Shown in pieces: positions 4,656 through 60,778 of a DNA stretch of 64,000 bases (its first letter is position 1; each line of letters begins with the position of its first letter). Where the stretch lies: the NCBI GenBank assembly GCA_033182465.1, contig CP137324.1, positions 2,582,849 to 2,646,848 on the forward strand. The letters run 5' to 3'. The translations under genes and the position numbers were made by a program. The notes below the pieces were generated by a model. It did not search any database. It was given only the letters and a program-made list of their open reading frames with translations, and was not told the DNA's origin. Source of the DNA: Sanghuangporus weigelae (lineage: Eukaryota > Basidiomycota > Agaricomycetes > Hymenochaetales > Hymenochaetaceae).

Positions 4656-4659
4656 TGGG

Positions 4660-12560: not shown

Positions 12561-12727
12561 TGTCGATCCGCGCTGGGTTAAGCTGTTATGACGCGGAACG
12601 TGGCGGAATATGTGTCACGTGCGTGATTTCGGACTTAGCGTGTCGGTGCTTCTTACATCGTCTTGATACCAGGTATATATTTCTAGTGGTTGGTCCGAGG
12701 TTACTCTCGTTCAATCTTCTTTCTGAC

Positions 12728-14225: not shown

Positions 14226-14463
14226 TGTAATACAAGAAAAAAAATCTTCTGACGTAGTTACATTAGTTTTTTTATGTAAATGCAAATGATCCAAGTTGAG
14301 TGAGGGCCACACACAGTCATGTAATGACTCAACTCGATTCAGGAGATTGCTATGCACAGTCCCACAAGCGCTTTCGACACTCGCCAAGGACGACGTCATC
14401 CTACCCATATAAAACCCAAGGTACAAGAGCACTCACCCCACCCCCCCTCTCCACCAAACGAAT

Positions 14464-15735: not shown

Positions 15736-16147
15736 AGTCTGTAGAATCATGACTCTTCAGTGATGCCTGACTATATTTGAAGAGGAAATACGATTTATAT
15801 TGAAAACATACAAATCAGACGTGCCGCATAGTAAACAAAAAACAGTCGAGTGGTGGTCAGATAGTATACGCAGAACAAACAACATACACAGTCAACAATC
15901 ATTAAACACATCTAAACGAAGCACATAAGGCAGGCTTCCTTGTTTTCTAATGAGCAGCAAATCAAATCAGCTTCGCTTCAGCGAGTTGCCAGTCTCGCTG
16001 CTGCGCCAAACCTGATCCCACTGATTCCCACATCATGCCGGTCCATCAACAAGTCGTCCAGTATATGTCGTATCGCTTCAAATGAATGATCGCAGATGAT
16101 CGGGTTCAGGTGAAGGAGGAACGAGGGAATGAGAGACTCGGGAGATC
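15736..16147. other. No gene seen
   Basis: Spacer between the hydrolase-like pair and the next gene; AT-rich up to about 15940, with no recognisable coding. Confidence 0.5.
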
Positions 16148-17584: not shown

Positions 17585-17763
17585 GCTTCTCATGAATGGT
17601 TCATTCTTACCTTACGAACGGTTCAATTCTTATGAACCGTTATTTTCCGACTTGTCTTTTCTGACTTGAAGAGCACGTCTTTTTTAAGCATTATTTTTTT
17701 TCTTCAACTTTCTTATTCTGACTGACTTGTATTCCGTCGAATGTATTTAATACAGGGCATATA

Positions 17764-18000
17764 CTAAGTGCTAACGAACTGTTCCGTTCAAATCGAACGG
17801 TTCGTTAGCACTTAGCGTAGATACAGTAGGTAGTTCTAAGGTCCAACGAACCGATCGAAACGAGATCGGTTCGTTGGGACTTAGAAGTAGTGTAGTTGTA
17901 GTAAGTAGATAGGCGTAGATAGGGAGGTCTTGAAATCAAGACCTCCGTTCGAACAGAGATTAGGGTTCCGCAGCGTATCGTATATACTGTATACGATACG
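17764..18000. repeat. Cluster of four hairpins
   Basis: Four inverted repeats follow one another: 17764-17815 (16-bp outer stem, ctaagtgctaacgaac), 17836-17884 (about 21-bp stem with two mismatches and the same ctaag...aacgaac arms), 17923-17946 (11-bp stem, 2-base loop) and 17974-18000 (11-bp stem, cgtatcgtata). The cluster lies directly upstream of an LTR. Confidence 0.75.
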
Positions 18001-18028
18001 GGCATATACGCGATACGGCCATATGCGT

Positions 18029-19519
18029 TGAAGAGTAAGACTAAAGCTTGGGAGCGTACGAAGTCGTTACGACCAGTCCCGCGGTATTCCGACTGGTTTC
18101 GCCCGGTTCCGACTGGTTTCGCTGGAGCGAGTGGACTTAGCAAGAACGCCATAGTCTAAATGGCACGTGCACCGTTCCGTGATCGGCCATCATATAAGAC
18201 ACGGCGGAAGAATCACGCGACAATCCTACACGCGTCAATCACAAGTCTCCGGATCCCGGATCCGTACTCCTGACAAAGAGATTTGACCCTGCAGCGTCGT
18301 CCACAGTCCCTCTCCCATTCGAAACGTCGCAGATTTGCCCTGTAAGGCTAGCCGAGGTCTTTCCAAGTCTTTTCCCCAAGTTCCGACTCGTTCCGCTCAA
18401 AGACACCCGGTTCCGAAGGCTTCGCTTATGATCTCACCTTTCTATATGCGTCCCTTTTATTTCTTTATGCTCTCGTTCCAACCATGCTTAGTATTGTTTC
18501 TTTCTGTTTTATGTGTCCCTTAACCATTCATATGCGCCCCTCTCCATGGTGGATAAGTGATATGCGTTCCCCTTTTTCTTATGGCTTATGTTTTCTGACC
18601 GATGGGAGGTTCAGTTTGGATGCTTAGTATAAATTTAGCACGACTCTTGTAGTGGGGGGACAGTTGAGGGGGAGCATAGCAGTTCTCACACCGTCTCAAG
18701 TCCCCCAGCTCCGAGTTATACTTGTTCGTAGTGGACTCTCTCGTCTCCTAAGTCTAAAATACGATATTTCGTGTTCTGTATAGTCGATCGGTGACCTCTC
18801 TTCGCAGCATAGCCGTCCGCACGTTCGTATAGTTCGCCGTGTTCGTGTAAAGGACTTCTCTTGTCTCTATCATCCGTATCGAAACCTCCTCGCGAGTTCC
18901 GATCTGTTTCGCTGGTTTCGCCCATAACCCAGTTACTTAGCGTGCCGCGTGCTTTCGGTCTCGTAACACCTTCCCTTCTCCACTGTCGTCGGAAAAGGAC
19001 ACCATATCATCCCCTTAGCCCCTCCGTCTCTCGTATCACGTTTCGGTCACTCAGTTATCGTCCTCCGCCCATCGTATCGCGTTTCGAATTGTTACGCCGT
19101 GTTCCGACACTTTAGACTACGAGTGAGATCAGCTGCCGTCGCTTCCCAGTGTGTTAGCACGGTCGATTAGTCACGTTCGAGTTGGTGGTTCGACTAGCGT
19201 AGCATTAGTTAGATTAGTTCTTGTGCCTTGTGTTAGTCGGCTTTAGTCCAGAGCTTGCAGTTGAGCCGGAGAGTCGATTTAGCCTTCGCACCGCCACCAT
19301 CAATCTCGGGAGAAGCCCATCCTCGGAACCCTTCCTCGAGCGCTTCCTGCGCGTTCCTCAGCCCTCATACAACCCTTCTCTCGTATATTCCATTATCCCT
19401 TCATTACCACTTGCCTTTGGTCTAGGTGTATCTCTCTGCTAACTACTCAAAGGTATTCTAGGGCAGCCCCTCGAACTTTATACTCCCTGTCCGATATCAG
19501 AACAGCCACAGGAGTTTCA
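18029..19519 (+). repeat. LTR, 1.49 kb (inverted mate at 48558-50043)
   Basis: It begins TGAAGAGTAAGACTAAAGC and ends GGAGTTTCA, so it has TG...CA ends, and it matches the 1486-bp sequence at 48558-50043 in opposite orientation over its whole length, with scattered differences. The flanks (gcgt and tcac) do not form a target duplication, so it is not a simple solo LTR. Its right end touches the outer end of inverted-repeat arm 1. Confidence 0.7.
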
Positions 19520-20638
19520 TCACTCGTCTGGAGAGAAGAGGGGCGCGCATGTAGGACTGGGTGGAGGGCCACATATTGGCCGTGTGTGAGCCATTATTAG
19601 CCTATAGGCAGCTTCGGCACCGGCTTTGACTTTAGCTCATTGATTGAAGAAATCAACGATCATCATGGGAATCTGCAGCCAATACGGTTGGTAAAAGGGA
19701 CCAGCAAGAGCAGTGGCTGAGGAGGGATGGTATCAGGAGGTGGAATGACCGATGTAGAAGACACCGAGGGAGAAGTGGACTAAGAAGTAAGCTTGTACGG
19801 AGAAAATGCCCGTGCATTCTCTGCAGAAATGAGACGTGATTTTGTCGCAATGGGTTCGCCAGAGAGATCTGATACGGAGTTTTCTGGCTCAGGATCATTG
19901 AAGCGTCCATATCCTTCTAACTCGCGAGCGAGCCTTTCCTCCTGATCTATTCGCTCTGGACTTTCTGTCCAACCTCGTTTCAATCCCTCCATGTATTCCT
20001 TGAAGGTCATTCTCCCAATGATGATCGAACCACCCTGTAGCTCACGTACAGCGAGCTCCTCTTTTGAGTAATTTGTCGGCGTAGGAACAGGTGATGAAGT
20101 GGGAGCCTCCAATCCTTCATCAATTCTGCGTTTCGCTTTGATCTTCTCAGATATTTGTCGGGCAAGATCTCCATGACGGCGACCATTCACCAGGTCATAG
20201 TCTATAGCTGCAGCAACCAAGACAGGCTGACACGAAAGTTCAGACAAATGAGCATGGAAGAAATATATCAAATGTACGAACCTTGACATACTTCCAAAAG
20301 TATTTTAGGCTGCGATTAACGTCTTTGTCACCCAGCCATTTACAGGCATACACAGTCACCTTACGAGGTAGCTCCATGCTATCCAAAGGCTCCTGAGCTA
20401 GGTGTGAGACCCGTCTGATGTACTTTTCGTGAATGTCTTTGCATTTCTTGCGATCATACGTGTACAGCCCGATGAGTGAAGAGGTGACGCGGATGAAAAT
20501 CAACCAATTCTGAGATGGAAGTTTGGGGCGTTTAGCAAGCCAGACCGGAAGACCAGAGTAGCGCAGAGTGGGCCGCACTCCACTGGAGCTTGAGCCCTGC
20601 GAGGCGGGCGGCGGTGGCTTGTCGCCCGAGGTGCTCAT
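19520..20638 (-). pseudogene. TIM54 copy in arm 1, truncated
   Basis: Mitochondrial inner-membrane import subunit TIM54 of the TIM22 complex. From ATG at 20638 it reads MSTSGDKPPPPASQG, RPKLPSQNWLIFIRVTSSLI (membrane segment), LPRKVTVYACKWLGDKD, an intron at 20227-20281, VLVAAAIDYDLVNGRRHGDL, FKEYMEGLKRGW and DLSGEPIATKSRL. An in-frame stop then follows (KLTS then TAG). Beyond it lie sequences recognisable as more TIM54 (LLLVPFTNRIG, MMIVDFFNQ in another frame, KVKAGAEAAYRLI). The copy is cut at 19520 by the LTR, losing the C-terminus. The stop and frameshift are shared with the arm-2 copy, so the decay predates the duplication. Confidence 0.85.
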
Positions 20639-20661
20639 GAACAACAGCACAACAGAGAGTA

Positions 20662-20808
20662 CTGTACCCATCTGTACGTGTACGTACGGGTGCAACCATA
20701 ACAACGGTAACACTATAAGAGTTGGGATTCGAAGCAACCATCCGTGTTACACGTTACACCAGGCAACCGGTGTTACCGTTACAGTTGCACCTGTACAGAT
20801 GGGGACAG
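20662..20808. mobile_element. 147-bp MITE (type B) upstream of TIM54, arm 1
   Basis: Inverted ends CTGTACCCATCTGTACGTG and its diverged partner (CTGTCCCCATCTGTACAGG read from the right), flanked by TA at 20660-20661 and 20809-20810. It lies only about 20 bp upstream of the TIM54 start codon. Confidence 0.7.
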
Positions 20809-20829
20809 TATTTGTTTGTGAGAATCTAT

Positions 20830-21078
20830 AATTGAATGTCTTCTAATCTTGAGGTAGTAGTGGGCAGGAAGTCACCCCAAGGATATCTGCTTTAGGTATC
20901 ACCATTGAGAAAAATTGTGCTTTTCTCCTTCTATGAGTAACACATGTAAAAGTCGCAACTGATGATTTTGTGAAGCTGTCGACCCTCAAATCCAACACTA
21001 AGTCCGCTCATCACGTGTTATAAATTGTCTCTTCTTCATTCAAAAGCAGTGCCATTACTAATGCAAACGGCTATGCTG
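20830..21078. mobile_element. Truncated type-A MITE, arm 1
   Basis: It matches one side of the full elements at 35314-35860 and 63287-63802 (shared cttgaggtagtagtgggcag, ctcatcacgtg and the end agtgccattactaa). Only one terminal repeat is present, ending at 21078 before a TA. The other end is replaced by the type-B MITE region. Confidence 0.7.
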
Positions 21079-21315
21079 TAATATTACAATCACTTTTCGA
21101 CGACAATTATTCTCGAGTGTAATTCGACAATATTACAATTAGGATAATTGTCTGAATGTATCCGGGTCCGTGTCTCATCTCAGACTGCGACAAAGAGGGG
21201 CGCTCCACCGACACGACGTTACCTCCTCCGCTACTATGTAACCTCGCCAAGTTCATTACGGCTTCAATAATCCCTCCCCTCCAACAGCGCAACGCCAAAC
21301 GGACACTCAACTCAG

Positions 21316-23909
21316 ATGCGCTTCCTCCCACTCCTCTATTCATCAACAACTACCCCGGGCGGTAGCAAGTTGTCCTCCCCGCCTCACTCCCGCTCTTCTA
21401 CTTCCGAGCTCGCTGACATTCCCAGGCCCAGCACTTTCCTGTGCGACCCACGCGTTACACTTGACCATCTCAACAACAAGGCTGACACGTCCGCTACGGA
21501 CTCTACTGCTGCGAACAACGGGTCCATACTCGTCGATGCTGCCCGCGAAGACTGGTGCTATGCAGTCGACGTAGCCTCTCAGTACCTGCCTGGCACAGTC
21601 GCTGGTGCATTTGGTTATGACTTCCATACGTGCTTTCAATAATGCTACCAGAGTCCGGTTTTAATTTGTGTCGCGCATATTTATAGCTTTCGGGACCACG
21701 AAACCCGAAGAGGCTCAGAAGAAGCTTCAGGCAGGCCGAGTGGGTCAACAAACTCCATTCGAATTGGATCCGAAGGACCTGGCTTTGGGGGGTATCGTAT
21801 CTGATTTCAGTAAGTAAATGGAACCGACGCTCACATTTACCGTTGCTTATTGAAATCTAATTGCCAGACCCGTCATCCAGCAGGTCTCACGCGTCAAAGT
21901 CAGAGTCCGAGCCCAGTTCGAACAAGTACGCGGTTGCAGCATTTACTACTGTTCCCGCTTCAAAAGAGCAGAAAAAAGACGACGATGTGCAAGAGGTTTC
22001 TACCAGACAGTCTCAATCCCAGTCCTCGGACCTGAGGAAGAGAGCTACCGAAACTGCTGCGCTCGGAGCGGGTGTAGGCACACTCGGTGGTAGAGCGTAC
22101 GGGTCTTCACGTTCGCCGGCTCAGCCGTCTAGCAATGTCAACCCAACTTACAAGGACTCGTCAACTGCTTTGTCCGAAAGCGCTTTCAGGAGCAGAGTGC
22201 GAAGGGGCATCCTGTGTTCGCAACGTACGCACCTGCTCCTGTTATCACGGACACCTCTTCCGAGGATGCTGCAAGGCCAACCGCTAGCGCTAAGGGTCCT
22301 AGCCGTCCATCTGAGCAGGCGCCTTCAGCTTCAACGTCAGTTTGGGATGAACGAGGAAGGAGCGATACTGAGAAGGCTTTGCATCCTCATCGGGCTGGCG
22401 GGACTGACACGAATAGCGAGGATAAGAAGAAAGCGATCCAGGCAGCTGCGCTTGGAGCTGGGATCAGCACGGTCGGAGGCGCGACGTATGCGCATTCGCA
22501 TTCATCAAAGGATACTGCTGACCAAGTCTCGCCCACCGGCACTGCCCAGCCCCAAGTTTCGGGCGACAAGTTGGAAGATATCCTTTCCGCCAAGGCTCGT
22601 GGAACTGACCCTACTGTTGCTGGTGCTCCAGGCGGTTAGCTGGCAGAGGACCAGCCTGCTTTCGTCCCATACGCACCCGCACACGTCATCACCTGGACTA
22701 CACACCCGATGTCCCCGAGGATGATGACGAGATTCCACCTACATCGTCAGTTCGTGACGGAAAGGCTTCTCCTACTGCAGACGCTCAGAAATTCACCGAT
22801 CAGGGCTACTCCGATTCGCTCAGTGACTCTAGAACAAAAAAGGGTGTTGAAGGGGCTTTTTTGGAGCGGGCGCCGGAGTACTGGGAGGTGCTGCATATCA
22901 GCATTCGCGGAAGAACGACAAGCAAAAGGTTATGTGGAAGTTTCGTGTTCACGTTCAGTTATTAATCCATTGGATATCTCTAGGAGACTTCGCTGTTGTG
23001 CCTGCAGGTTACGCAGAGACGAAAGATGAGACGAGCCCGACAGTGAAGGAGTCTCCTGTCAAATCGGAAACGCAGTCTCATACGACCCGAGATACGCAAG
23101 AGGACGCAGACCAGGATGTTTCGAGGAGTGACGCGAAGACAAAGAAACGTGCTGAAGATGCCGCCATCGGAGCGGAAGCAGGAATTCTGGGCGGTGCAGC
23201 GTACATGCACTTGCGTACATCCGGTCAAGACCCATATGTCGATTCCTCTACTTCAACTTCTTCTCCAACGGCGCTTTCAAGGGAAACGCCTTCAAATTTT
23301 GGTGCGCCTACGGACTCTCAGGCTCAACCAGCTTCCAAGCCAACTGCACCAAGCACGGACACGTCTGGGCCCGAAGTTACTCAGAAGGCCCCCTGAAGAC
23401 AATCCGATGTTACAGGCGACTCCGAGGTCAATAAGCCAGGAGTCGAGAGAGGCGCTGTTGGCGCGAGGGCTGGTCAGGCTCTTATAAGTCGTCTGGATCT
23501 GAGCCGTCGCGAGGGCAGACTACACCTGAAGCTGAAGAAAAAGACTCGACCGCCCCTCAAGAATCAAAGTCTAAGAAAGGATTCTGAGCCGCTGCGCTTG
23601 GAGCAGGTGCAGGCGTTTTGGGCGGCACTGCGTTGCATTATTCGCGTTAGAATGGAGAGGATGATTCTAGCAGCAGCGCGATAGAGGGTTCGCCGCCGGC
23701 TTCCCATTCCCAGTCTCAGCCTCAGACTGAGCCTGAATCTCAGTCCAAGTCAAGCACTGACCAGTTGCTGGATGCGGGTGGGGACAAAGACACGAAGTCA
23801 ACGGACAAGAAAGGGATCGCTGCTACTGCAGCCACGGGTGCCGGAGTGGGTGCCATCGGCAGTGGACTCGCCTCCGACAAAGAGGACGAGACAAATCAAC
23901 ATGAGGAGA
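21316..23909 (+). pseudogene. Glycine-zipper repeat protein, 5' part (arm 1)
   Basis: Spread over several frames the strand encodes repeated hydrophobic modules of the type TAALGAGVGTLGGRAYG, QAAALGAGISTVGGATYAH, DAAIGAEAGILGGAAYMH and AATAATGAGVGAIGSGL, separated by long Ser/Gln/Asp-rich linkers. These look like glycine zippers that could pack in or on a membrane; the function is unknown. Exons before it read REDWCYAVDVASQYLPGT and PFELDPKDLALGGIVSDF. Stops and frame changes break it (for example TAG after VAGAPGG at about 22639, a frame change near 22860). It is cut at 23909 before the C-terminus seen in the arm-2 copy. Confidence 0.6.
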
Positions 23910-25676
23910 ATTATCAACAACTAATGAAAGTAAGAGGAGTCAATTTAATCCTGCTGAAACCGGGGGAAATACGAAGTGCAAGAAACTGTACTCACTGACT
24001 GATGTTCCTGGACTGAGCTGTACCCAATACTCAGAATCCGCGCTCTTGAGTGTTTTGTTCCATAATCGCAAAGCCTCATACCTGCGCAAAACTCCCAAGT
24101 CTATGGCAAAATAGAAGAGACAGAAAGAAACCCATACCATTTCTCCAACACCTCCGAACTAACACCCTTCATCGCACTCCGATCATCATGATTATATCGT
24201 ACTTGATAAAGCTTGTCACTCGGACCCAAATTCAATATCGGATACCCTTCAGGAGGGTTAGGCCTGTAAAGATCGCCTGGTTCGCCAGCGGCGTGGGTTG
24301 GAAGAACACGTACGTACGTAAGTGTGTGGAATGCCTCGGGGTGTGGCTCTTTGGGATGGAGGCGACGTAGAAGCCGTCAACGAGGAGGGTCTCGCCGCCG
24401 TGTCCATCCTGGGTGGGAGAGTAGATGGAAGAGTCGGAGGCCACATGGATCAGTTTGAGAAGAAAATTAAAGTTTATGACATATATGAGAAGGCGTAACT
24501 GCTCACAAAGTAGGTCGTATCTGTATGTGCACCCAAAACGAGAGTCGTGTATGCGGTATCACCTTTCGCAAGATCGGATGTAAAATCCCAGAAGGTGCCG
24601 TCTCAGACAGGACATCAGAATGAGCAAGACATCCAGAATGAATAGAGAACCGTACATTGTGTTGATCGGATGTTCGCTACCCTAACAGCGAACCTCTCCG
24701 TAGCCTCAGGTGTAGCTTCGACTCCCTGGGTAAAGCAAAACCCAAATGTTTCCTATCCCATTTAAGTGCCCAGCTCAGCCCCCTTCCTCTCTTACCAACG
24801 ATATCACAACGTCAACGCACAATCTTCCTGAGTAACTTCCACAGCCCTCGGTCTTCGTTCATGACATAGTCATTTGCGATGGATGGTGGATCTTGCACGA
24901 TCGTTGCTCCCCAAAGCACCTTCCTAATAGGCGTGAGTTCAGATCCAACTAAATTGTACGGCATCCATAATCACTTACTCAAATGGCTGGATAAGCGGCT
25001 CCTTGGGAGGCAGTAGCGCGACAGACTCAGGAGAGTGCCATTCATTCCAGCCAGTTCCATGGGTAAATGGATACATGTGGTTTTAACGAAGCAGGCCCTG
25101 TGTGCCATCAGCGGCGAATGAACAAATAGGTCCCAAATTCATTCTTACAAGTTACTCTCAAGCCTTCTTCGGTAGCCTCGACATTCGCAGGTTGCACTTC
25201 TGGAGGAATCTGCACAAACGAGGTGTTCATCAGTTCCGATACAATTAGATAAGTCAATTTGAAGAGAGAACATACGTCAAACTTATCCACAAGCCATTGC
25301 TTCGTAATTTGATGGAAGCATTCCGGACATTGACAATGGTCTCTCAGCCAAAAGTTGAGGCTACATTCAATCACATCCTCGACCCAGACATTAGTCTTGC
25401 TGACTAAATGGCCTATCTTGAAAACTGAAGAACGCACTATCTTTACCAAGTTAACAGATCCCACCCGACGTGCACCTTCTTCTCATCCATCTTCACAAGC
25501 GGTAGGTGCTTGTCCGAAGAGCTCGCTGATTCTGGGGTGACATTCGTCTTAGCCTTTGGTGCATCGGATTGTGCGGTCGAAGCGGATGACGCTGGATCTG
25601 GTGTTGGATTTTGCGACGTCGCCGTCGCTGTCGATAAGTATCTCAAGTTCCGCATACATTTCGATCTTGTATGCAA
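23910..25676 (-). pseudogene. Trimethyllysine/gamma-butyrobetaine dioxygenase-like, C-terminus lost
   Basis: An Fe(II)/2-oxoglutarate dioxygenase of the carnitine pathway. The N-terminal zinc-type domain is visible as NFWLRDHCQCPECFHQITKQ (about 25310-25365). The TauD-type core follows: LGAHTDTTYF (HxD metal ligands, about 24505-24535), DPCGLRLFHLLSHP, GGETLLVDGFYVA, PTHAAGEPGDLYRPNPPEGY, YQVRYNHDDRSAM and SADSEYWVQLSPGT. Frame changes occur between LLSHP and GGETLL and again near 24325. The final part, expected to hold the distal histidine and the VFDNHRVLHGR-like motif, is missing because inverted-repeat arm 1 begins at 23909. The start at 25676 (with a mitochondrial-like, Ser/Arg/Thr-rich leader) is plausible. 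TMLH and BBOX cannot be separated here. Confidence 0.75.
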
Positions 25677-26139
25677 TAAACTTGTTAGTATGTACGACTG
25701 TGTTAACGCGGGAGCAGCCCTGCTCTAGAGAAACCAAGGCGTTCAGTAAACACGCGAGAAAGAGCGGTCGTGAGCAATCGGAAGAGTCTGTGCACCTTCG
25801 ATTCTGGTGTTTGTGCTCGAACAGTATTCCTACATAACGAATATCTCACTCCTTGTCGAGCAGCCAGCATCATTCCAGTGACGACGCTGCAAGATGATAA
25901 GAGGTAGAAGGGGGAACACCGAGACACGGAACAAAACAACTCGAAGCTCACAGCACGAATAGCCCACGTGAGAGTGAGGAACGTAATGACCGGCCCTGAG
26001 CTAAGGTACCAAGCGCATTTGATCGAGTCCGTTCGGCTTCGAAAACGCTTTCCGTTCAATACGACACAAGCATAGACCATGCGAAGAGGACATGGGTCAA
26101 CCAAGGTATGCAGCCATATCATTTCTTGTCGAATGCAGC
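25677..26139. promoter_or_regulatory. Divergent intergenic region
   Basis: It separates the minus-strand dioxygenase gene from the plus-strand Dpb11-like gene, so it should hold two promoters. N-terminal coding of the Dpb11-like gene may extend into it. I see no distinct motif. Confidence 0.35.
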
Positions 26140-29100
26140 TCATATCTTAAAAGGTGCCAGGCGTGAAACTACGACCAGCCGCGCCAACCAAGTCACGCAA
26201 GCCGGGCGAGCCATCCACGCAGTTAACCCGACTACATTCATCAATTCAAGACGATGTTGACTCGACGGAGATTCTGTGAAGCTGTTGGAAACTACTCGTC
26301 GGAGTGGTCATCTGCGGATCTGGCCTTAGCGACAAGGTAATGACCATGTGGAATATCCGTAATGTGGCTAATGACTTGGCCGGTTTGCAGGTCAATTTGT
26401 ACCAGCAAGCAGTACAGCTGGGAGCTCAGACATCGTCAGACCTAACAGATCAAGTCACACATCTCATCTGCGAAAGCCCTGGCACTCCAAAATACAAGGT
26501 GAGTATGTAACCAACTCATACTTGTCTCAGAGTTTATTTTCGCCAGTATTGTGTGGAGCACGGGATTCCGATATTACAACCATCTTGGATATCTGACATA
26601 TACGAAAATGGACCAACGGAGAAAATATCAATGTAGAGAAGGTATGCCGTTAAAATTAAGTTTCCTGTTTCTTATTTGCTCATGACCTACTCATGGAAAG
26701 ATTGCAGTTATGCATCGATTTCCGACCTTTAAGTCCATGAAGTTATGTATAACAGCAGTCAACGATGTTGAAAGGAGAAAACAAATCCAGAAGCAGCCCG
26801 AAAAGAATGGAGTAACATTTATTGAGACGTTCAGCAAAGGCATAGAACTCACACATCTTCTATGCGGTCCGGATAGAGGAGAAAATATGGACCAGATGGG
26901 TCTCACGCCGAAAATGCAATATGTTGTAAAATACAATGATACTCGGGCCAAAAAGGTGCATCTTGTTTGGGAAGACTGGTTTTGGGATTGCTTGGAGTTC
27001 AAAGGTGCGTGTCATCATCAAGGAATTTTTCTAAGCTCACTTTTCAATAGGTATCCTTGATGAGAGGAGTTATCTTGCAACCGGACTCGTCCTCCTCGTA
27101 GAATAAGACGGGAACGTAAGTTCTCGTTTTCCTTTTCTGTCCTCGACCTTGACCATGTTCTTCAGGTAGCTTCTCCTCTTGTCTTACCGATAACTTCAAC
27201 AGCCGAACAAAGTAAACAACGGGCTCCAACTCCCTCTTCTCAATTCGATACCAACGCGGATGCGGAAGAGACTGTCAACGTCAAATGCATGCCTGAAGCG
27301 GCCGCTCTTCTCTGGGAAAGTGCGCTAAAGAAGAGGGGTCTTGAAATCAAAGGCGGAAAGTTGTTACGGAGTCCCAGTAAATCAAGTTTTCTCTCAAGAG
27401 AAGGCTCTCAGATACCACCTTCTACCTCATCCCACAATCATGATGAATTTGCGACCTCATCGAGGACGAAGAGCTCTCTGAACGCGGCTTTCAAACGAAC
27501 CAAGTCATTCACAGCGAAGACAGCAGAACCTGACGCTACAAAATCTGCCTTTTAACGCGTGCTGTCGACTCCCGTGGCGATTACAGAAAACCGGCATGCT
27601 TCTGCAACAATTCCAGGCTCACCTGCTCTGCAGGACCATAATCAAATCCCAGAAGGAGAACGGGTTCTATTTGCTGGACTCAGATTTCGAGCTTTAGGAG
27701 AAGCAAGTGGACCGAAACTGACGGAAGCACTTGAGCTTTGGGGCGGTGCTGTGATTGTTGATGCCGATACTGAGGTCGACTTCATAGTTGTTTGCCTCGT
27801 GAGGTAGGTCTTCCACAGCATCGTTCTCGCTCGTACTGTCTGACAGAATACATAGCGGAAACACATTCTTTCGTAATGAGCCGAGTCAAACAGAGCGCCA
27901 GAAATTTCGAACAGAATACTGGATCGAACAGTGCATGTTTGAGGAAAGGATATGTGCTGGGGACGAGCACCCTGCGTTTGTTCCTCTCCGGATCTCTACG
28001 CCACTTCCAGGTGCGTTACTATGTCGGTTTATAGAATTCAGCTGATCGTCTTTGAAGGCGCCGATAAACTCATGGTTCACATATCTGGCTTGATACCATC
28101 AGAGAAGATGTCTTCTGTCCGGCTTCTCAAGCAATCGGTTCGTGTTGATATCATTTATAACTCTTCCCCGTTTGTAAATGTCTCAAATTGAACAGGTGAA
28201 ACTGTTATGGACCAGCTCTCGCGGCGAAATACGCACCTCATCTGTCCTTGCGGCACCGGTCCGAAGTTCATGAAAGCGCTAGAATGGGAAATTCCTGTTC
28301 TGAGCCTGCAATGGCTATTTGACACTGTGAAGTCCAGCAAAATACATGATGTCGACAACTATCTAGTTACAGCTGATGGTTCTTCTTCTGCTCCTGCAAA
28401 GAGCACTCCCGAGGGTGGGATGATGGCGGACATAACAAATAGCGATTTTGTCCAGGGCTCCTCAAAGAGCAAGGGCTTTGCCAAAAGCTCAAAAAAATCG
28501 CAGTCCTCGAACTCGTCATCTCTCGATGTTGCCCAACAAGTCTCTTTGGACGATTGGACAGCTAACGCGCTTCTTACGGAACCTGCTCCAGCGAACCCGC
28601 CGACTTCGTCTCCACCTGACACAGTTTCGACGACTACTTCCCCGTTCCGCAGGCATACTACTTTGGGAGAAAGCATGCTATCAAAGAGGCCCTCGATTTC
28701 TCCCTTGACCTCACCGAGTAAATCAAAGAGCATGGTAATAGAGCGCGTCTCGTCAAGCGCGACTCCTTCCCCAATGTGAATGCCCTCCAAAAACACTCGG
28801 GTCGAGCAACAGGAAGGATCAGCAACAGCAGCAGCGGGACGGATTATGTCGCCATCACCAGCTCTGGCGACTGCGAGCACGAGCACGCTCACCGGCGAGA
28901 GTGCTAGCGTGCTCAAAGACACCATCGCCTCGCTCTTGGGCAAACGGCCCTCTTCAGAGGACAATCGCAATAGCGACTGCAACAGCAATGACAACAACCC
29001 GGAGGGTGAAAATCAGGATAAGGCGCCTGCAGCGGCGCAGCAGCAGCAACAACAGGGTCTGACTACACGAGCGTCGAAACACTCGAAACCACCTCCGCGT

Positions 29101-29568
29101 ACGAAATCGCGGCAGGATCCTGTAGACGGTGGGTCCGGCGGCTGCTCGGCATGCTCGTTCTCCCACACGACGAGCTTGGAGGTCCTCGGGCGGACGTCGT
29201 CAATGCTTTCAGGCGCTGGTGGTGGTGGGTCCGCCTATCTATTCGACTTCACGCTGAGTTCCGGCAGCAACGCCGAGTCGTCGCCCACGGAGCTGTTCAA
29301 CCACCACAACTCGAGTGACGCGGCAGCGGAGGAGAGTATACGCGTGGCGTACGAAGACCCGAGCCAGAGGGCTGAGGAGCGGAGATTGTTAAGTCTTATT
29401 TCTGGGAATGGGGATGCTGATGTGAACACGATGGATGCGGATGTAGGTGAGAGTGGTGTGATTAAGGAAGAGTCGCAGGTTCCGCACACGGAAGGGAAGA
29501 AACCGCAGCCTAAGCCAAGGAGGAGGGGAAGGAACCTCGTGAGGAGGGTCAAAGACGAATACTATTGA
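26140..29568 (+). pseudogene. Dpb11/Rad4/TopBP1-like four-BRCT protein, disrupted
   Basis: A nuclear scaffold that links CDK-phosphorylated replication factors and activates the ATR checkpoint kinase. BRCT1: VVICGSGLSDK, intron, LYQQAVQLGAQTSSDLTDQV, THLICESPGTPKYK, intron, CVEHGIPILQPSWI. BRCT2: HRFPTFKSMKLCITAVNDVE to VWEDWFWDCLEFK. BRCT3: VLFAGLRFRALGEASGPKL and YWIEQCMFEERICAGDEHPA. BRCT4: MVHISGLIPSEK, RNTHLICPCGTGPKFMKALE and IPVLSLQWLFDTV. A long Ser/Pro/Gln-rich tail ends in a basic cluster (KPRRRGRNLVRRVKDEYY). Lesions: TGA near 26277 (after STEIL), a lost base around 26605-26635 that shifts frame after DIYEN, a TAA near 27554, and TGA at 28777-28779 between two halves of the same frame. 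The domain order is clear. Confidence 0.8.
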
Positions 29569-29820
29569 TGAGTTGTAGATTTCCCTAATCTAGCTTGGAT
29601 ATAATTGTATCTTCTCTACAAATTATTGTTTGAACGCAGCTCATGTTGGATACACATAGCACAAATTATGTATGGTTTTAAATATTTTAAATACTACATT
29701 CAATTACTGAATAAAATAAAATGGAGATACAAATACAGAAGCAAACTGAATCGTTGTGAAATGAAACACGAAGCACTAAGCTACTTTTCGGGAAAGGCAC
29801 CTCTCTCCACCTCGAAGAAA

Positions 29821-32800
29821 TCACTTCTCATGATGGTGCAACTTGTCCTTAACCTTCTCGACGATATGTTTGACAAGACCTTCCTTTTTTCCATGTCCAT
29901 TTCCATTCCCGTTCCCATTCCCATTCCCGTTCCCATTGTCATTGCCGCCACTTCCATCTCCGTTCCCGTTCTTGCCATTCCTCATCCGTTCAACCGTGCT
30001 CGACCTCAGTACTCCGCCTTCATGCTTCTCCTGAAGACCTTCCGAGCCGCGGTAACGCGAATTGTCTCCTCCCGCCGTGATAACTCCAGCAGCAGTGTTC
30101 GCTGTCTTCCACTCAGATTTCGAATGAACCTTCTTCGAGTCGGAATTGTTATCGTCAGTCGCGGAAGGCTTGCCAGATCCGTCAATATCGACAGCCTTGA
30201 GGGGCGCGACGTTCATCGAGCTCACATTCGCAGAGGGGAGCGGGAAGTCACTGTCTGCGCCCGATTTAGGGGAATTGTAAGGTCCGGCTGCGCCATGTGC
30301 GATTGGATCTGGACGGTGTTGTGGCAGGTTCGAAGCGGCTTTAATAGATGGATGAGCTTGCCGTTGTTGTGAGAGTTCGTCTGAGTCTGTGCCGGTGCCG
30401 GCTTGATGAGCTGTGGTGGTGGTGAGTTCATCGGATGGCTGGGGTTTCTTAGCATCTCTGAGCGAATTTGCAGCATGTCCTGTTCCAGCTCCGAGAGCAG
30501 TACCAGCCGCGGCGCTGGCTGCTAATCCCTTACTCTCAACCTGCGTCTTCGCATCCTTGCGCACGTTCTCGTTCAACTGTGGCTGCGTCACTTCCTTCGC
30601 TCCCTTCGCACGCTTTGCATGTTTATTGCCACTAGCAGCTGCAACATCGTTCTCGTGCTTCTTCACCTCCTTCTCCCGGTTCACAGCTTGATGCTGCTTC
30701 TGCGCCTCCTTCGCGTCATGCTTGTCTTCCTTCTTCGCCGCGCTTTCCTTGTCAGAGGAAGGAGCAGTAACGGAGGTGATGGTATCCTTTCGGTGCTTCT
30801 TCACATCCTTCTCGCGCTTCTCGGCCTCCTTCTTCCTCTTCTCCTCATGTTGATTTGTCTCATCCTCTTTGTCGGAGGTGAGTCCACTGCCGATGGCACC
30901 CACTCCAGCACCCGTGGCTGCAGTAGCAGCGATCCCTTTCTTGTCCGTTGACTTCGTGTCTTTGTCCCCACCCGCATCCAGCAACTGGTCAGTGCTTGAC
31001 TTGGACTGAGATTCAGGCTCAGTCTGAGGCTGAGACTGGGAATGGGAAGCCGGCGGCGAACCCTCTATCGCGCTGCTGCTAGAATCATCCTCTCCATTCT
31101 AACGCGAATAATGCAACGCAGTGCCGCCCAAAACGCCTGCACCTGCTCCAAGCGCAGCGGCTCAGAATCCTTTCTTAGACTTCGATTCTTGAGGGGTGGT
31201 CGAGTCTTTTTCTTCAGCTTCAGGTGTAGTCTGCCCTCGCGACGGCTCAGATCCAGACGACTTATAAGAGCCTGACCAGCCCTCGCGCCAACAGCGCCTC
31301 TCTCGACTCCTGGCTTATTGACCTCGGAGTCGCCTGTAACATCGGATTGTCTTCAGGGGGCCTTCTGAGTAACTTCGGGCCCAGACGTGTCCGTGCTTGG
31401 TGCAGTTGGCTTGGAAGCTGGTTGAGCCTGAGAGTCCGTAGGCGCACCAAAATTTGAAGGCGTTTCCCTTGAAAGCGCCGTTGGAGAAGAAGTTGAAGTA
31501 GAGGAATCGACATATGGGTCTTGACCGGATGTACGCAAGTGCATGTACGCTGCACCGCCCAGAATTCCTGCTTCCGCTCCGATGGCGGCATCTTCAGCAC
31601 GTTTCTTTGTCTTCGCGTCACTCCTCGAAACATCCTGGTCTGCGTCCTCTTGCGTATCTCGGGTCGTATGAGACTGCGTTTCCGATTTGACAGGAGACTC
31701 CTTCACTGTCGGGCTCGTCTCATCTTTCGTCTCTGCGTAACCTGCAGGCACAACAGCGAAGTCTCCTAGAGATATCCAATGGATTAATAACTGAACGTGA
31801 ACACGAAACTTCCACATAACCTTTTGCTTGTCGTTCTTCCGCGAATGCTGATATGCAGCACCTCCCAGTACTCCGGCGCCCGCTCCAAAAAAGCCCCTTC
31901 AACACCCTTTTTTGTTCTAGAGTCACTGAGCGAATCGGAGTAGCCCTGATCGGTGAATTTCTGAGCGTCTGCAGTAGGAGAAGCCTTTCCGTCACGAACT
32001 GACGATGTAGGTGGAATCTCGTCATCATCCTCGGGGACATCGGGTGTGTAGTCCAGGTGATGACGTGTGCGGGTGCGTATGGGACGAAAGCAGGCTGGTC
32101 CTCTGCCAGCTAACCGCCTGGAGCACCAGCAACAGTAGGGTCAGTTCCACGAGCCTTGGCGGAAAGGATATCTTCCAACTTGTCGCCCGAAACTTGGGGC
32201 TGGGCAGTGCCGGTGGGCGAGACTTGGTCAGCAGTATCCTTTGATGAATGCGAATGCGCATACGTCGCGCCTCCGACCGTGCTGATCCCAGCTCCAAGCG
32301 CAGCTGCCTGGATCGCTTTCTTCTTATCCTCGCTATTCGTGTCAGTCCCGCCAGCCCGATGAGGATGCAAAGCCTTCTCAGTATCGCTCCTTCCTCGTTC
32401 ATCCCAAACTGACGTTGAAGCTGAAGGCGCCTGCTCAGATGGACGGCTAGGACCCTTAGCGCTAGCGGTTGGCCTTGCAGCATCCTCGGAAGAGGTGTCC
32501 GTGATAACAGGAGCAGGTGCGTACGTTGCGAACACAGGATGCCCCTTCGCACTCTGCTCCTGAAAGCGCTTTCGGACAAAGCAGTTGACGAGTCCTTGTA
32601 AGTTGGGTTGACATTGCTAGACGGCTGAGCCGGCGAACGTGAAGACCCGTACGCTCTACCACCGAGTGTGCCTACACCCGCTCCGAGCGCAGCAGTTTCG
32701 GTAGCTCTCTTCCTCAGGTCCGAGGACTGGGATTGAGACTGTCTGGTAGAAACCTCTTGCACATCGTCGTCTTTTTTCTGCTCTTTTGAAGCGGGAACAG

Positions 32801-33433
32801 TAGTAAATGCTGCAACCGCGTACTTGTTCGAACTGGGCTCGGACTCTGACTTTGACGCGTGAGACCTGCTGGATGACGGGTCTGGCAATTAGATTTCAAT
32901 AAGCAACGGTAAATGTGAGCGTCGGTTCCATTTACTTACTGAAATCAGATACGATACCCCCCAAAGCCAGGTCCTTCGGATCCAATTCGAATGGAGTTTG
33001 TTGACCCACTCGGCCTGCCTGAAGCTTCTTCTGAGCCTCTTCGGGTTTCGTGGTCCCGAAAGCTATAAATATGCGCGACACAAATTAAAACCGGACTCTG
33101 GTAGCATTATTGAAAGCACGTATGGAAGTCATAACCAAATGCACCAGCGACTGTGCCAGGCAGGTACTGAGAGGCTACGTCGACTGCATAGCACCAGTCT
33201 TCGCGGGCAGCATCGACGAGTATGGACCCGTTGTTCGCAGCAGTAGAGTCCGTAGCGGACGTGTCAGCCTTGTTGTTGAGATGGTCAAGTGTAACGCGTG
33301 GGTCGCACAGGAAAGTGCTGGGCCTGGGAATGTCAGCGAGCTCGGAAGTAGAAGAGCGGGAGTGAGGCGGGGAGGACAACTTGCTACCGCCCGGGGTAGT
33401 TGTTGATGAATAGAGGAGTGGGAGGAAGCGCAT
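29821..33433 (-). pseudogene. Glycine-zipper repeat protein, copy with C-terminus
   Basis: Mirror copy of the gene at 21316-23909, continuing past the inner arm end at 30840 into unique DNA. The last frame (30984-29821, 387 codons) adds a highly charged Lys/Glu/Asp region, a further module (AASAAAGTALGAGTGHAANS), a Gly/Asn repeat (GNGNGNGN, 29890-29950) and a basic amphipathic end (LVKHIVEKVKDKLHHHEK). The same stops and frame changes as in arm 1 interrupt the upstream parts. It lies tail to tail with the Dpb11-like gene and head to head with TIM54, which looks like the ancestral arrangement. Role unknown; the zipper modules suggest membrane association. Confidence 0.6.
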
Positions 33434-33670
33434 CTGAGTTGAGTGTCCGTTTGGCGTTGCGCTGTTGGAGGGGAGGGATTATTGAAGCCGTAATGAACTT
33501 GGCGAGGTTACATAGTAGCGGAGGAGGTAACGTCGTGTCGGTGGAGCGCCCCTCTTTGTCGCAGTCTGAGATGAGACACGGACCCGGATACATTCAGACA
33601 ATTATCCTAATTGTAATATTGTCGAATTACACTCGAGAATAATTGTCGTCGAAAAGTGATTGTAATATTA

Positions 33671-33919
33671 CAGCATAGCCGTTTGCATTAGTAATGGCAC
33701 TGCTTTTGAATGAAGAAGAGACAATTTATAACACGTGATGAGCGGACTTAGTGTTGGATTTGAGGGTCGACAGCTTCACAAAATCATCAGTTGCGACTTT
33801 TACATGTGTTACTCATAGAAGGAGAAAAGCACAATTTTTCTCAATGGTGATACCTAAAGCAGATATCCTTGGGGTGACTTCCTGCCCACTACTACCTCAA
33901 GATTAGAAGACATTCAATT
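33671..33919. mobile_element. Truncated type-A MITE, arm 2
   Basis: Mirror of the piece at 20830-21078, with one terminal repeat (gcattagtaatggcact near 33690). Confidence 0.7.
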
Positions 33920-33940
33920 ATAGATTCTCACAAACAAATA

Positions 33941-34087
33941 CTGTCCCCATCTGTACAGGTGCAACTGTAACGGTAACACCGGTTGCCTGGTGTAACGTGT
34001 AACACGGATGGTTGCTTCGAATCCCAACTCTTATAGTGTTACCGTTGTTATGGTTGCACCCGTACGTACACGTACAGATGGGTACAG
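33941..34087. mobile_element. 147-bp MITE (type B), arm 2
   Basis: Mirror of 20662-20808, flanked by TA, directly upstream of the TIM54 start codon at 34111. Confidence 0.7.
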
Positions 34088-34110
34088 TACTCTCTGTTGT
34101 GCTGTTGTTC

Positions 34111-36154
34111 ATGAGCACCTCGGGCGACAAGCCACCGCCGCCCGCCTCGCAGGGCTCAAGCTCCAGTGGAGTGCGGCCCACTCTGCGCTACTCTGGTCTT
34201 CCGGTCTGGCTTGCTAAACGCCCCAAACTTCCATCTCAGAATTGGTTGATTTTCATCCGCGTCACCTCTTCACTCATCGGGCTGTACACGTATGATCGCA
34301 AGAAATGCAAAGACATTCACGAAAAGTACATCAGACGGGTCTCACACCTAGCTCAGGAGCCTTTGGATAGCATGGAGCTACCTCGTAAGGTGACTGTGTA
34401 TGCCTGTAAATGGCTGGGTGACAAAGACGTTAATCGCAGCCTAAAATACTTTTGGAAGTATGTCAAGGTTCGTACATTTGATATATTTCTTCCATGCTCA
34501 TTTGTCTGAACTTTCGTGTCAGCCTGTCTTGGTTGCTGCAGCTATAGACTATGACCTGGTGAATGGTCGCCGTCATGGAGATCTTGCCCGACAAATATCT
34601 GAGAAGATCAAAGCGAAACGCAGAATTGATGAAGGATTGGAGGCTCCCACTTCATCACCTGTTCCTACGCCGACAAATTACTCAAAAGAGGAGCTCGCTG
34701 TACGTGAGCTACAGGGTGGTTCGATCATCATTGGGAGAATGACCTTCAAGGAATACATGGAGGGATTGAAACGAGGTTGGACAGAAAGTCCAGAGCGAAT
34801 AGATCGGGAGGAAAGGCTCGCTCGCGAGTTAGAAGGATATGGACGCTTCGATGATCCTGAGCCAGAAAACTCCGTATCAGATCTCTCTGGCGAACCCATT
34901 GCGACAAAATCACGTCTCATTTCTGCAGAGAATGCACGGGCATTTTCTCCGTACAAGCTTACTTCTTAGTCCACTTCTCCCTCGGTGTCTTCTACATCGG
35001 TCATTCCACCTCCTGATACCATCCCTCCTCAGCCACTGCTCTTGCTGGTCCCTTTTACCAACCGTATTGGCTGCAGATTCCCATGATGATCGTTGATTTC
35101 TTCAATCAATGAGCTAAAGTCAAAGCTGGTGCCGAAGCTGCCTATAGGCTAATAATGGCTCACACACGGCCAATATGTGGCCCTCCACCCAGTCCTACAT
35201 GCGCGCCCCTCTTCTCTCCAGACGAGCGATCACCTGAGAATGATCTAGATTTCGATCGCCTGGGAGAATCGTACTATCAGAAATCATTCCTTTCGTTCCG
35301 CGATAATTTCTTACAGCTAATTGCGTTAGTAATGGCACTCCCATTGTCTCCCAAGTGTTTTTGAGTGACTCGGAAGTAGAGACAAATTATAACACGTGAT
35401 GAGTGGACTTAATGAAAATTTTGGTTGGATTTGAGGGTCAACAGCATTATAAAATCATCAGTTACGACTCTTTTTCACTGAAACTTGGTTTACATGTGTT
35501 ACTCATAGAAATGGAAAAGCACAATTTTTCTCAATTGCGATATCTGATGTAGATCTCCTTGGGGTGACTTCTTGCCCACTACTACCTCAACATCAGAAGA
35601 CATTCAATTATATTCTACAAACCAATTCTTTTCTTTCAAATTTTGACGGGCAGTAGACGGTCAATAATTAATTTAGAAATTTGTTCTGAGCAATTTGGTT
35701 GAGAATTGAGCTCAGGACAAAATGGGTAGTACCAGAGGAAAGGTGGAAGGCATGCCAGATGTGGAGTTGTAACGGCGAAGTCCATTTTCCCATCTGCTTT
35801 TGAAACAAGTTCTCTTCATTCAAAAAAAGTCCAGAGTGCCATTACTAACGCAAACAGCTGTAAAGGCATGCGAAGATTATTACTACATAACTTTGCCCGG
35901 ACAGACTCGCGGCTGCACGTACTCTAGCGCACGGCGAAAGGGAGCCAACGAAAGACGAAATGAACCACCCACCTCCGACTGAAGTTGAGCTCCGACAGGA
36001 ACGTTTGACGAAAGAGATGCGATGGAGGAATAACGAAGAGGGTTGGTAAATTATTCGACCGGATAAAGACGTCCCATGGGACGAACGATTTAGAGGTTCA
36101 CTCTCCATTTTTACGGATCCCCCTGAAGAGCCTACTAATGAAAATTCGCAATGA
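34111..36154 (+). pseudogene. TIM54 with stop codons and a MITE in an exon
   Basis: Full-length locus of the TIM22-complex subunit TIM54. Exon 1 is 34111-34467, the intron 34468-34522, and exon 2 opens PVLVAAAIDYDLVNGRRHGD. The membrane segment is near residues 40-56 (WLIFIRVTSSLIGLY). TAG at 34967-34969, a one-base frame change near 35082 and TGA at about 35106-35108 (after FFNQ; Arg expected, CGA to TGA) break it. Conserved text continues: AEAAYRLI, LGESYYQKSFLSFRDNFL, then a 547-bp MITE, then KACEDYYYITLPGQTR, LRQERLTKEMRWRNNEEGW, DKDVPWDERFRGSL and PPEEPTNEN to a TGA at about 36152. TAA near 36046 (after NNEEGW) is a further stop. It is divergent from the glycine-zipper gene and tail to tail with HFM1. 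Confidence 0.85.
35314..35860. mobile_element. 547-bp type-A MITE inserted in a TIM54 exon
   Basis: Inverted ends (CAGCTAATTGCGTTAGTAAT at left; reverse complement of CAGCTGTTTGCGTTAGTAAT at right), both reading on to GGCACTC, with TA at 35312-35313 and 35861-35862. Removing the element and one TA joins TTC TTA AAG GCA TGC, which reads FLKAC and restores the TIM54 frame, so the pre-insertion sequence is certain. Confidence 0.9.
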
Positions 36155-36219
36155 TATCGAATCTCGCATTAATTGTCTTTCAAATTTGTATCTAAAGCAG
36201 CATCCGTTTGATTTGTGTC

Positions 36220-39200
36220 CTATCCCACAATTTTCACCGCTCCACTATTCATGATCCAGTCCTCCATGTCTGCCCAATCATCATCCATGTGGTCGAAATC
36301 GTTAGTGTCTTTGCCTTCAGCTTTGGCGTCTGTTGTTACAATATGAGCCCCTGTTCTTCCGGATCCATTGTCTAAGTTAGCGGCCTGAGCAGTATCTGTC
36401 TGAACGGTACTTGTTTGAGTTGTATCGGAGTGAGGATCCCCAGTCTGCGCAGGTAAGGACGGAGGAAGAATATTAAACATTGAGTTATCGAGGGAGAAGA
36501 AATCATCATCTGGGTAATAGTCATTTGCTGAGCATAAATCACCACCGAGAGCAGTGGAAGTTGGCCGAGAGGAAGAAAGCGAAGACATATGAAGGAAAAG
36601 CGGATCGTTGTCAGACTGCAGCTTGGGTTGTGTATCGAGTCTCGTCTTCTTTGTCGCTGGCTCCCGAGACGACTGGGCGATCAAAGAGTTCGATTCTCTA
36701 GTGTGTTTCATTGTCCGCTTTGGCGCAACAAGGTCAAGTTCGGATTCGTTAGGTGCAGCGATGTTGGTCAAAGACACATTTGCAGAGTCAAAGATGGGAT
36801 TCGCTGTGTCCATAGTCAGCATTATTGCATCAAGTTCAGAATCGCCGAGACTGCTGTCTGAACAAGCGTCCTTATCAGATTCTTCATTGAGATCGGCAAA
36901 CTGTACGTCAAAGCTGGGCTTCACAGTCACCCCGGGTTTACGGGCAGCTAGGATTGGATCAAGCTTCAAGCGGCTTCCCTCATCCAGGCGAATAGATTCA
37001 GCAACGCCTGAACATTTATGGAGAGATCCCAGTTGTCCAAGTGTTGTGTCTTCCTTTATAGCCTTCTTTTGCACCGGTTCTCTGCGTTTCTTCGTTTCCC
37101 TCTTGTTAGCTTTGACCGCCTCCTTTGTAGCTGTGTGGAGATGTGAATTTGCTTTGAGATGCCTACAAGATTATATGCACTTACCTCTCCTCTCCTCAAG
37201 TACCTTTTTAGTGCCCGGCGGTGGCTTTGCTAAACCTTCGCGGCAGCTAATAGAAAAGACGTACAATGAATCCTTATCATATGTATGCGTGAAAGAGACA
37301 GAAAGACTAACCACAGATGGCGGCAGGCCATTTTATCTCTACAATTATGGTTGCAGCTACAGACAAGGAATATGAATAAAGGTAAAAGGTCATTTGCGGA
37401 ATACTAACACATAATTTCCGTTGGGCAGAGTCTTCCGCCCGAGAGGAGACCTAGCCTGCGAGACTATCATACATGTTGCTTAGTTGAATAAATGCCAGAT
37501 ATACTCAGGGGGCCAGGCGGAAAATCGCATACCCAACAGTGAGAACGAGCCTTTAGCATCCCGCAGGTCATCTTTGTATAGGTCGCAATTCGTGTCATCC
37601 CAAACTTCAGGGCCATCTTGCTGAGATGCTTCAATAAAGATGTCATTGGCGGACTTGTGCCGTATGTATCTCATGGGATACTTATTTGCAGGTACCAAGG
37701 GCTTATAAATCTGTGTGATCGTCAAACCAGCGAAGGTTTCCTGATTGTTTTCTTGTGAGCAAATGGCAGATCCATGAAAAGCGGAGCTTACAGAGCTGAT
37801 GAGCACGCAGATTATCTGGCTCGGCTTCGTCAATTCTGCGTTTACAGTGAAAATCTGCGGCTCGCTGAGAGCATCTGTCCTTTTAATCGAAAATTAAAAA
37901 TTAAAAAATAGCGAAGGTACGCAATGTTGTTTAGAGCAATCTGTACTCACGAGATGCGCCTGAAATCGATAAGGTTCAAATCCGAAGTCGTTGTTAATAC
38001 ACTAGTCATTCCCAGAGATTTTGCCTTCTGTTTAAACTTCTTCCGACTTGGCAATGCCTGCAACAAAGAGCACTCAATATTGAGCTCAATGGATACTGCT
38101 TTCTTTCCTGAGTACGAGGTTACTCCATTTCTATCCACAGATATGGATAATCCGTAGTGCGGCATGTCCTGTACTTGTTGCAAGACTTCGTGACCGTAGG
38201 GCGGACATCGGTTCAGAAGCTCAATATCTCGTTTGAGCACTAGAATTCTGTACAAGTATTAACACTCACCATCTCAATCCTTGACGGTTCTTGCTTCTCC
38301 AGGGATTTAAGGGAAGTTATCCCATGTTCAGCAAGCACCTGATGGAAGTTCGTGTAAAATTCTTGATACAGAAAGGCGACAGGAGACTGACCTTCAAGCT
38401 GAATGAACATAATTTATCAACATGGAGAATGCAACAGCAAGTTTGTAATGTACGATTTCTCTCCAATGGACTCTATTTGCTTCAATACAACTGGCCTGTC
38501 TTCCCAAACTTTAGCCATCAAACACCGTACTCTGTGGGATGCATGAGCTACGCTTGCTACTTGTTTGAAATAAGATGATACGGACAATTCAAGCCCGTTC
38601 TTCAACTGGGCACCATTCTTCTTGATTATGGCAACTTCTACGGCAACTATACACTAGATGAAGATCGATCTGGATACATTCGATGCATCTCCAGAACATA
38701 CCTCTCGCTATACGTGCTGCATGACGAAAGATTGATAACGCATCTAGAGCAGGCTGACTATCTGCTGTCTTGTATTCTGGAGCATTCAAAGATATGCCAC
38801 CGAGGACAGCCTGTACAGAGATAAGATGTATGAGTCAAAGTTGACAAAGGTCGCGCTCAAAATCGATATACTTGTATGATTATGAAGGCCTTGTCAGATG
38901 CCTTCTCGACTTTCTTTATCTTATACCGGATGTCGGGATGGTCTCTCATCTTGTTGTACACCTGATTTTGCTCTGAGTTTGCCAGTCTACCATCAAGGCA
39001 TGATTTGCGTACCTGTTTGTCACAACCGCGAAGTCTGACGTCCCCAAGTCTGGTGCAAGCTCGGTATTTGCCACAAATGACCATTTTCATGATCACACTT
39101 ACTCATCGGCACAGCTTATGACCTCAAGCTAAGGGGAAAGTGTCAAGGGTTGTGTAACGCAGACACGAGAGCACCTACAATCTCACGGATAGTAGCTCGG

Positions 39201-48543: not shown

Positions 48544-48557
48544 GTTAGGGTAAACGT

Positions 48558-60774: not shown

Positions 60775-60778
60775 ACGT

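Follow-up and report, generated by a model that had tools for sequence, protein, structure and literature searches.

Palindromes of the human and ape Y chromosomes, which span tens to thousands of kb, are reportedly kept alike by arm-to-arm gene conversion (a finding said to be that of Rozen and colleagues in 2003), and subtelomeric segmental duplications form a patchwork of duplicons from several chromosomes by the telomere. Among fungi, accessory chromosome 14 of Zymoseptoria tritici is described as having a large palindrome, located between about 500 and 550 kb and flanked by two outward-facing LTR remnants (PMC3681731), putative subtelomeres of Marasmius oreades carry large structural variants (PMC9674265), and a C-to-T bias at CpG in fungal transposon copies is attributed to methylation followed by deamination (PMC4352252). 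The inverted repeat described here, from the final 64 kb of contig C7 of Sanghuangporus weigelae (the window, 64,000 nucleotides), is a good example of an already known kind. It resembles the Y-chromosome type in its near-identical inverted arms, whose identity would stem from conversion rather than age, but its arms are 4.4 kb long and carry pseudogenes, so selection for gene upkeep offers no motive here. The patchwork of subtelomeric segmental duplications is the same, with no difference in principle, the inverted pair with its reset core being a special case. The likeness to Z. tritici (PMC3681731) is that of a fungal palindrome associated with transposable-element remnants, whereas the 4.4-kb arms here lie close to a telomere, arm 1 bordering a dispersed element and arm 2 having a MITE close by. 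Compared with the CpG bias of fungal repeats (PMC4352252), the changes here fall in duplicated chromosomal DNA and are the sole type of difference between the arms.

Arm 1 (19520-23909, + strand) and arm 2 (30840-35229, - strand) are each 4390 bp long and align to one another with no indel, at a coordinate sum of 54749, and with nine mismatches (99.8% identity), while their flanks are unrelated. A repeat search on the window returned the inverted pair 19519-23910/30839-35230 (4392 nt, separation 6928 nt). The inverted repeat is confirmed as genuinely present in the assembly, and its initial annotation as indel-free reverse complements stands, short of full identity. When 1.5 kb of the core was searched against the genome, two identical copies turned up, each inside the window, and the next-best match had 75% identity (seven of seven candidates scored). 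Origin-dependent inverted amplification (ODIRA), which is defined by an inverted triplication, does not fit a locus with two copies. Cruciform extrusion is implausible across a 6.9-kb spacer, and gene silencing through hairpin RNA, also raised in the initial annotation, is unsupported here.

The window terminates in a telomere repeat array (TTAGGG/TTAGGC, 63880-64000, + strand), and its telomere-proximal paralogous blocks derive from contigs C7, C3 and C5, as in subtelomeric segmental duplication. The spacer, itself a chromosomal duplicon, starts with block A' (23911-25950, + strand, 88% identical to C7:1168190-1170213), oriented opposite to block A (25954-33597, - strand, 80-86% identical to C7:1147731-1155215), which extends without a break past the inner end of arm 2 and contains an apparently broken BRCT gene and a glycine-zipper-like gene. 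Block B (34088-44663, - strand, 91-95% identical to C3:1000574-1010719, with the sub-part 42756-44663 inverted) contains gene copies for Tim54, an SNRNP200-like winged helix and a protein with a weak resemblance to Mrp51 (below the Pfam cut-off). The A/B junction lies within the arms (33597-34088, no strand assigned) and contains a MITE remnant (33677-33939 in arm 2 = 20810-21072 in arm 1); a further MITE in block B (35311-35863, - strand) is located 81 bp past the outer end of arm 2, where the C3 paralog has an empty site. Searches for tRNA genes and Rfam families gave no matches.

Alignments to C7:1.147-1.155 Mb and C3:1.000-1.011 Mb pass uninterrupted over the ends of arm 2, and arm 1 is flush with a dispersed 1.5-kb element. 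As judged from these paralog alignments, arm 2 is confirmed as the original and arm 1 as the copy, the polarity first proposed. The collinearity of arm 2 with its paralogs over both ends also implies a spacer without a net flip: no net inversion of the kind suggested earlier is visible, and the spacer retains its ancestral contact with arm 2. The genes noted as crossing both ends of arm 2 resemble broken copies, with longer open frames elsewhere. Each arm contains a Tim54 (PF11711) paralog with a broken reading frame (19520-20746, - strand, in arm 1, ending abruptly at the dispersed element; 34003-35310, + strand, in arm 2, split close to its 3' end by a MITE), and stops and a frameshift are common to both; a second functional Tim54 is rejected, since the frame is disrupted in both arms. 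A truncated copy of the low-complexity glycine-zipper-like gene (21271-23995, + strand; weak Gly-zipper match, E 0.029, below the Pfam cut-off) is cut at 23910; the arms hold only part of this gene, and its internal C7 paralog keeps longer open frames. The inverted repeat likely has no cellular function.

All nine differences between the arms (arm 1 positions 19522, 19622, 19899, 19943, 23552, 23566, 23842, 23870 and 23887) oppose CpG to TpG or CpA. Paralogs carry C (G on the other strand) at every one of these sites, making C ancestral, and have it in CpG context at seven (the exceptions are 19522 and 19943); polarised by the paralogs, arm 1 has four of the changed bases and arm 2 has five. 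The changes are limited to CpG with C ancestral, the pattern of CpG deamination. Site 19522 falls within a 3-bp overlap with the end of the dispersed element and so may belong to the element itself; when it is left out, eight of eight remain. In a 98% duplication shared with C5, CpG changes number 43 of 85, and at this background the chance of nine in nine is ~0.002 (0.506^9), an excess that is not fully explained. CpG loss is faster in the subtelomeric copies than in internal paralogs (230 losses against 87, a manual tally with CpG assumed ancestral and arm 1 excluded), and the C5 DNA methylase family is represented above the family cut-off at four places in the genome. The C-to-T changes at CpG would most simply reflect deamination of CpG that is presumably methylated.

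The nine mismatches are confined to the outer 424 bp and 358 bp of the arms. These shoulders have nine differences in 782 bp (1.15%), versus none in the 3608 bp of the core (19944-23551 in arm 1, no strand assigned, identical to 31198-34805 in arm 2). The core contains 224 of the 271 CpG sites, all nine differences being among the other 47; when the differences were placed at random on CpG sites, a gap of at least 3608 bp without any arose once in 200,000 trials, and the 224 core sites have none of the ~43 differences expected from the shoulders. The arms are more alike than would be expected for a duplication of this age, although assembly collapse may also account for the identity of the core. 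The repeat called young in the initial annotation is so by half: with shoulders at 1.15% and a core at zero, the core appears reset rather than the entire repeat young. The restriction of mismatches to the edges supports gene conversion between the arms, as had been suggested.

The locus is probably, at a chance of about two in three, a subtelomeric inverted segmental duplication that was eroded at CpG and had its core homogenised by gene conversion without net inversion. Two duplicons, related to C7:1.15 Mb and C3:1.00 Mb, would have been joined close to C7's right telomere and then decayed, and a 4.39-kb piece over their junction would have been copied in inverted orientation beside the end of the dispersed element, possibly by break repair at that end (overlap 3 bp on one side, 0-1 bp on the other). 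After copying, C-to-T changes at CpG would have arisen in both arms through deamination of putatively methylated sites, and arm-to-arm conversion without net crossover would have reset at least 3.6 kb of core, the ~0.4-kb shoulders staying unconverted. Read in this manner, the polarised changes display CpG decay and gene conversion as two opposed forces on duplicated DNA by the end of a fungal chromosome; the mismatch-free core sets a lower bound of 3.6 kb on conversion tract length, and the shoulders measure how near the arm ends conversion gets. Arm identity is an unsafe clock, as one repeat reads 0% or ~1% diverged depending on the place of measurement.

At 424 and 358 bp, the shoulders are about as long as a short-read insert, and lengths of this order fit paired-read anchoring, so that a collapsed core consensus is conceivable. 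It is nevertheless unlikely that a real repeat has an identical core only as an assembly artefact, with a collapsed consensus placed twice and only the differences near the flanks resolved, because 24 of the 26 contig ends carry telomere repeats terminally or close by (the right ends of C5 and C13 have none listed), which implies long reads able to span 4.4-kb arms, and ordinary polishing leaves true differences unhomogenised. Slightly less likely again is that the duplication is very recent and underwent no conversion, mutation having been focused at the arm ends, for example by methylation spreading from the dispersed element at the outer end of arm 1 or the MITE just past that of arm 2. CpG decay versus outgroups is somewhat higher in the shoulders (16/49 in arm 1 and 21/53 in arm 2, counts that contain some of the nine arm differences) than in the core (53/247, arm 1, both parts), and the contrast between them may partly be a difference in mutation rate; but a rate ratio below 2 still predicts ~20 or more core differences where none is observed, the inner shoulders, with five of the nine changes, adjoin ordinary spacer on both sides rather than an element, and decay in the core is like that in the spacer (46/208 in the C7-paralog part of arm 1 versus 62/243 in the aligned spacer portion 27756-30839; Fisher p 0.44). 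A CpG-sheltered core is unsupported, decay there being similar to that of the spacer.

It is doubtful that duplication draws RIP-like C-to-T changes in CpG context onto both copies while arm pairing repeatedly clears the core and fails in the ~0.4-kb ends. Such RIP-like change would concern ordinary chromosomal DNA, not transposons. Classical repeat-induced point mutation (RIP) of the duplicated arms is very improbable: the changes are exclusively C-to-T, occur in both copies and are confined to CpG more strictly than those of the local background, but classical RIP is dense and mainly at CpA, whereas here there are nine changes per 4390 bp, all at CpG, and the core is spared. A single large mobile element, with the arms as its terminal inverted repeats and 6.9 kb of cargo between them, could be suggested by the long and almost identical inverted ends that enclose a spacer with genes. 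This reading has almost no probability: the ancestral setting of arm 2, collinear across its ends with two other chromosomal loci, refutes it, besides which the genome search found these two identical copies only, a duplicated target is absent from the outer flanks, and the spacer matches chromosomal DNA.

The dispersed element beside arm 1 (18026-19522, + strand, ~1.5 kb) has no long ORF (longest stop-free frame 100 aa) and ends in CGN...NCG; its last 3 bp (19520-19522) are also the first of arm 1, and no target-site duplication was seen by eye. It is found at 38 or more further places, each at least 0.87 kb long, with 89-97% identity. A sliding comparison of 18 copies from these places and the second window copy did not support a chimeric element as a sign of inter-copy recombination: no switch is peculiar to the window copy, and copy L048 has much of the same pattern. 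At the right end, these 18 genomic copies and the second window copy have NCG in 15 of 19 cases and NCA or NTG in the other four.

The window (C7:2582849-2646848) contains an inverted repeat, the two arms of which (arm 1, 19520-23909; arm 2, 30840-35229) pair as reverse complements over 4390 bp with no indels, as the initial annotation had held for 4.39 kb, but with nine mismatches. A repeat search of the window added one base to either end of the arms (4392 nt) and gave a spacer of 6928 nt. The nine mismatches are confined to shoulders of 424 bp at one end and 358 bp at the other; the intervening core of 3608 bp (19944-23551 in arm 1) is identical between the arms and holds 224 of the 271 CpG sites. 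A genome search with a 1.5-kb core query found two identical copies, both within the window; the next-best match (C7:1147731-1149025) was 75% identical, and the hits ranking after it were short pieces of a dispersed MITE.

The repeat occupies a stretch about 29 to 44 kb from the end of C7, one of the 13 contigs of the 33,870,148-base genome. The size of the genome, its short, broken-up exons and its Pfam content suggest a filamentous fungus, probably a basidiomycete. This contig is 2,646,848 bases long, so the last base of the window is the contig end, which is an array (63880-64000) of alternating TTAGGG and TTAGGC units. Among the best 40 of 47 candidate matches, 24 of the 26 contig ends have a similar telomere array at the end or close to it, the exceptions being the right-hand ends of C5 and C13.

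Genome comparison of the window, with positions 1-9999 and 54501-63199 set aside, indicates that the region around the repeat is a patchwork of duplicated blocks. One duplicon (25954-33597, 80-86% identical to C7:1147731-1155215) adjoins a block in the opposite orientation (23911-25950, 88% identical to C7:1168190-1170213), and another (34088-44663) is 91-95% identical to C3:1000574-1010719, its part 42756-44663 being inverted. Further duplications are shared with contig C5 near 1.871 Mb (50476-55137, 98% identity) and with C10:1677437-1678776 (10000-11340, 99%), and dispersed elements occupy 11338-12661, 18026-19522, 45722-47070 and 48555-50046. The best 40 of 100 candidates for 12662-18025 included no match beyond the window itself. 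Relative to the internal paralogs, the related non-subtelomeric copies, there are two small inversions, one per duplicon (42756-42760 and 25950-25954); at both, the paired alignments meet within 4-5 bp in the window.

The proposal that arm 2 is the original and arm 1 the copy was borne out by the paralogs: the C7 alignment continues across one end of arm 2 (30839/30840) and the C3 alignment across the other (35229/35230), whereas arm 1 lies between the right end of a dispersed element, which overlaps its start (19520) by 3 bp, and the block at 23911-25950, where the sequence shared across the junction is 0-1 bp. The spacer retains its ancestral contact with arm 2, and there has therefore been no net inversion.

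At all nine mismatches, CpG in one arm faces TpG or CpA in the other, and the paralogs (C3 as reference for four sites, C7 for five) have C, or G on the other strand; so polarised, the change is in arm 1 at four sites and in arm 2 at five. The paralog base at 19522 and 19943 is C but not part of a CpG, and the base at 19522 may be the dispersed element's own, because it lies inside the overlap with the element's end. CpG transitions make up 22-33% of substitutions where the window is compared with its paralogs over older divergence, 18-54% when the window's dispersed-element copy is set against 18 others (the top value in the closest copy), and 43 of 85 in the main alignment of the C5-contig duplication; at this last background the chance of nine in nine is 0.506^9, about 0.002, and the arms thus exceed it. 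With CpG taken as ancestral and arm 1 omitted to avoid double counting of the repeat, losses number 230 in the window versus 87 in the internal paralogs; CpG loss would then be quicker in this subtelomere's copies. The genome has four places matching the C5 DNA methylase family, one interrupted by an internal stop, which makes CpG methylation machinery plausible. In Agaricus bisporus, CpG methylation is described as almost limited to repeats (PMC7473861), and repeats of some fungi, basidiomycetes among them, are reported to show a C-to-T bias of the CpG type (PMC4352252).

When nine CpG sites were drawn at random, 1 of 200,000 trials left a gap of 3608 bp or more, and the shoulder rate predicts about 43 core differences, versus 0 observed. 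The core shows no visible sheltering: its CpG decay relative to the outgroup (46/208) resembles that of the aligned spacer 27756-30839 (62/243, p 0.44). Shoulder decay is somewhat higher (arm 1, 16/49; arm 2, 21/53, counts that include some of the nine arm-to-arm changes) than in both core parts of arm 1 (53/247), and a difference in mutation rate may therefore add to the contrast. The evidence is most simply explained by an inverted duplication whose age roughly matches the shoulder divergence (9 in 782 bp), after which CpG deamination would have marked the arms and later gene conversion between them would have reset the core without net crossover; arm 1 itself may have arisen through templated repair where the dispersed element ends. 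The main rival is that the core consensus was collapsed in assembly. Conversion-maintained inverted repeats, subtelomeric duplication and CpG decay are each already known, and a large palindrome of Zymoseptoria tritici is reported to have element remnants on its flanks (PMC3681731).

The arms are best regarded as dead DNA. The junction of the C7- and C3-related duplicons sits inside them, with a Tim54 paralog (PF11711) on one side and a low-complexity gene on the other. The C3 copy of Tim54 matches profile positions 3 to 325 in open frames, whereas both arms share in-frame stops and a four-base gap; the arm 2 copy is additionally split by a MITE that the C3 paralog lacks, and the arm 1 copy ends abruptly at the dispersed element. 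A BRCT-domain gene lies in the spacer. Where the internal C7 paralog has longer open frames (including 345, 615 and 461 aa), the window sequence shows stops and gaps that change the frame; conversely, some window frames fail against the C7 paralog and others hold, such as a 195-aa BRCT frame, so decay at both loci, or differing exon structure, may be involved.

The MITE family (about 0.5 kb, inverted ends TACAGCGG...CCGCTGTA) occurs at 33677-33939, 35311-35863 and 63284-63805, the last copy just inside the telomere. The separate 1.5-kb dispersed element family (18026-19522, 48555-50046) is symmetrical at its ends (CGN...NCG), and visual inspection found no target-site duplication. Adjoining a dispersed element is a 347-aa open frame (47019-48062, minus strand) that had no relative among solved structures in a sequence search (E up to 1) and strongly matches PF18723, the helical domain of 5-hmdU DNA kinase, a DNA base-modification family (E 7.4e-81).
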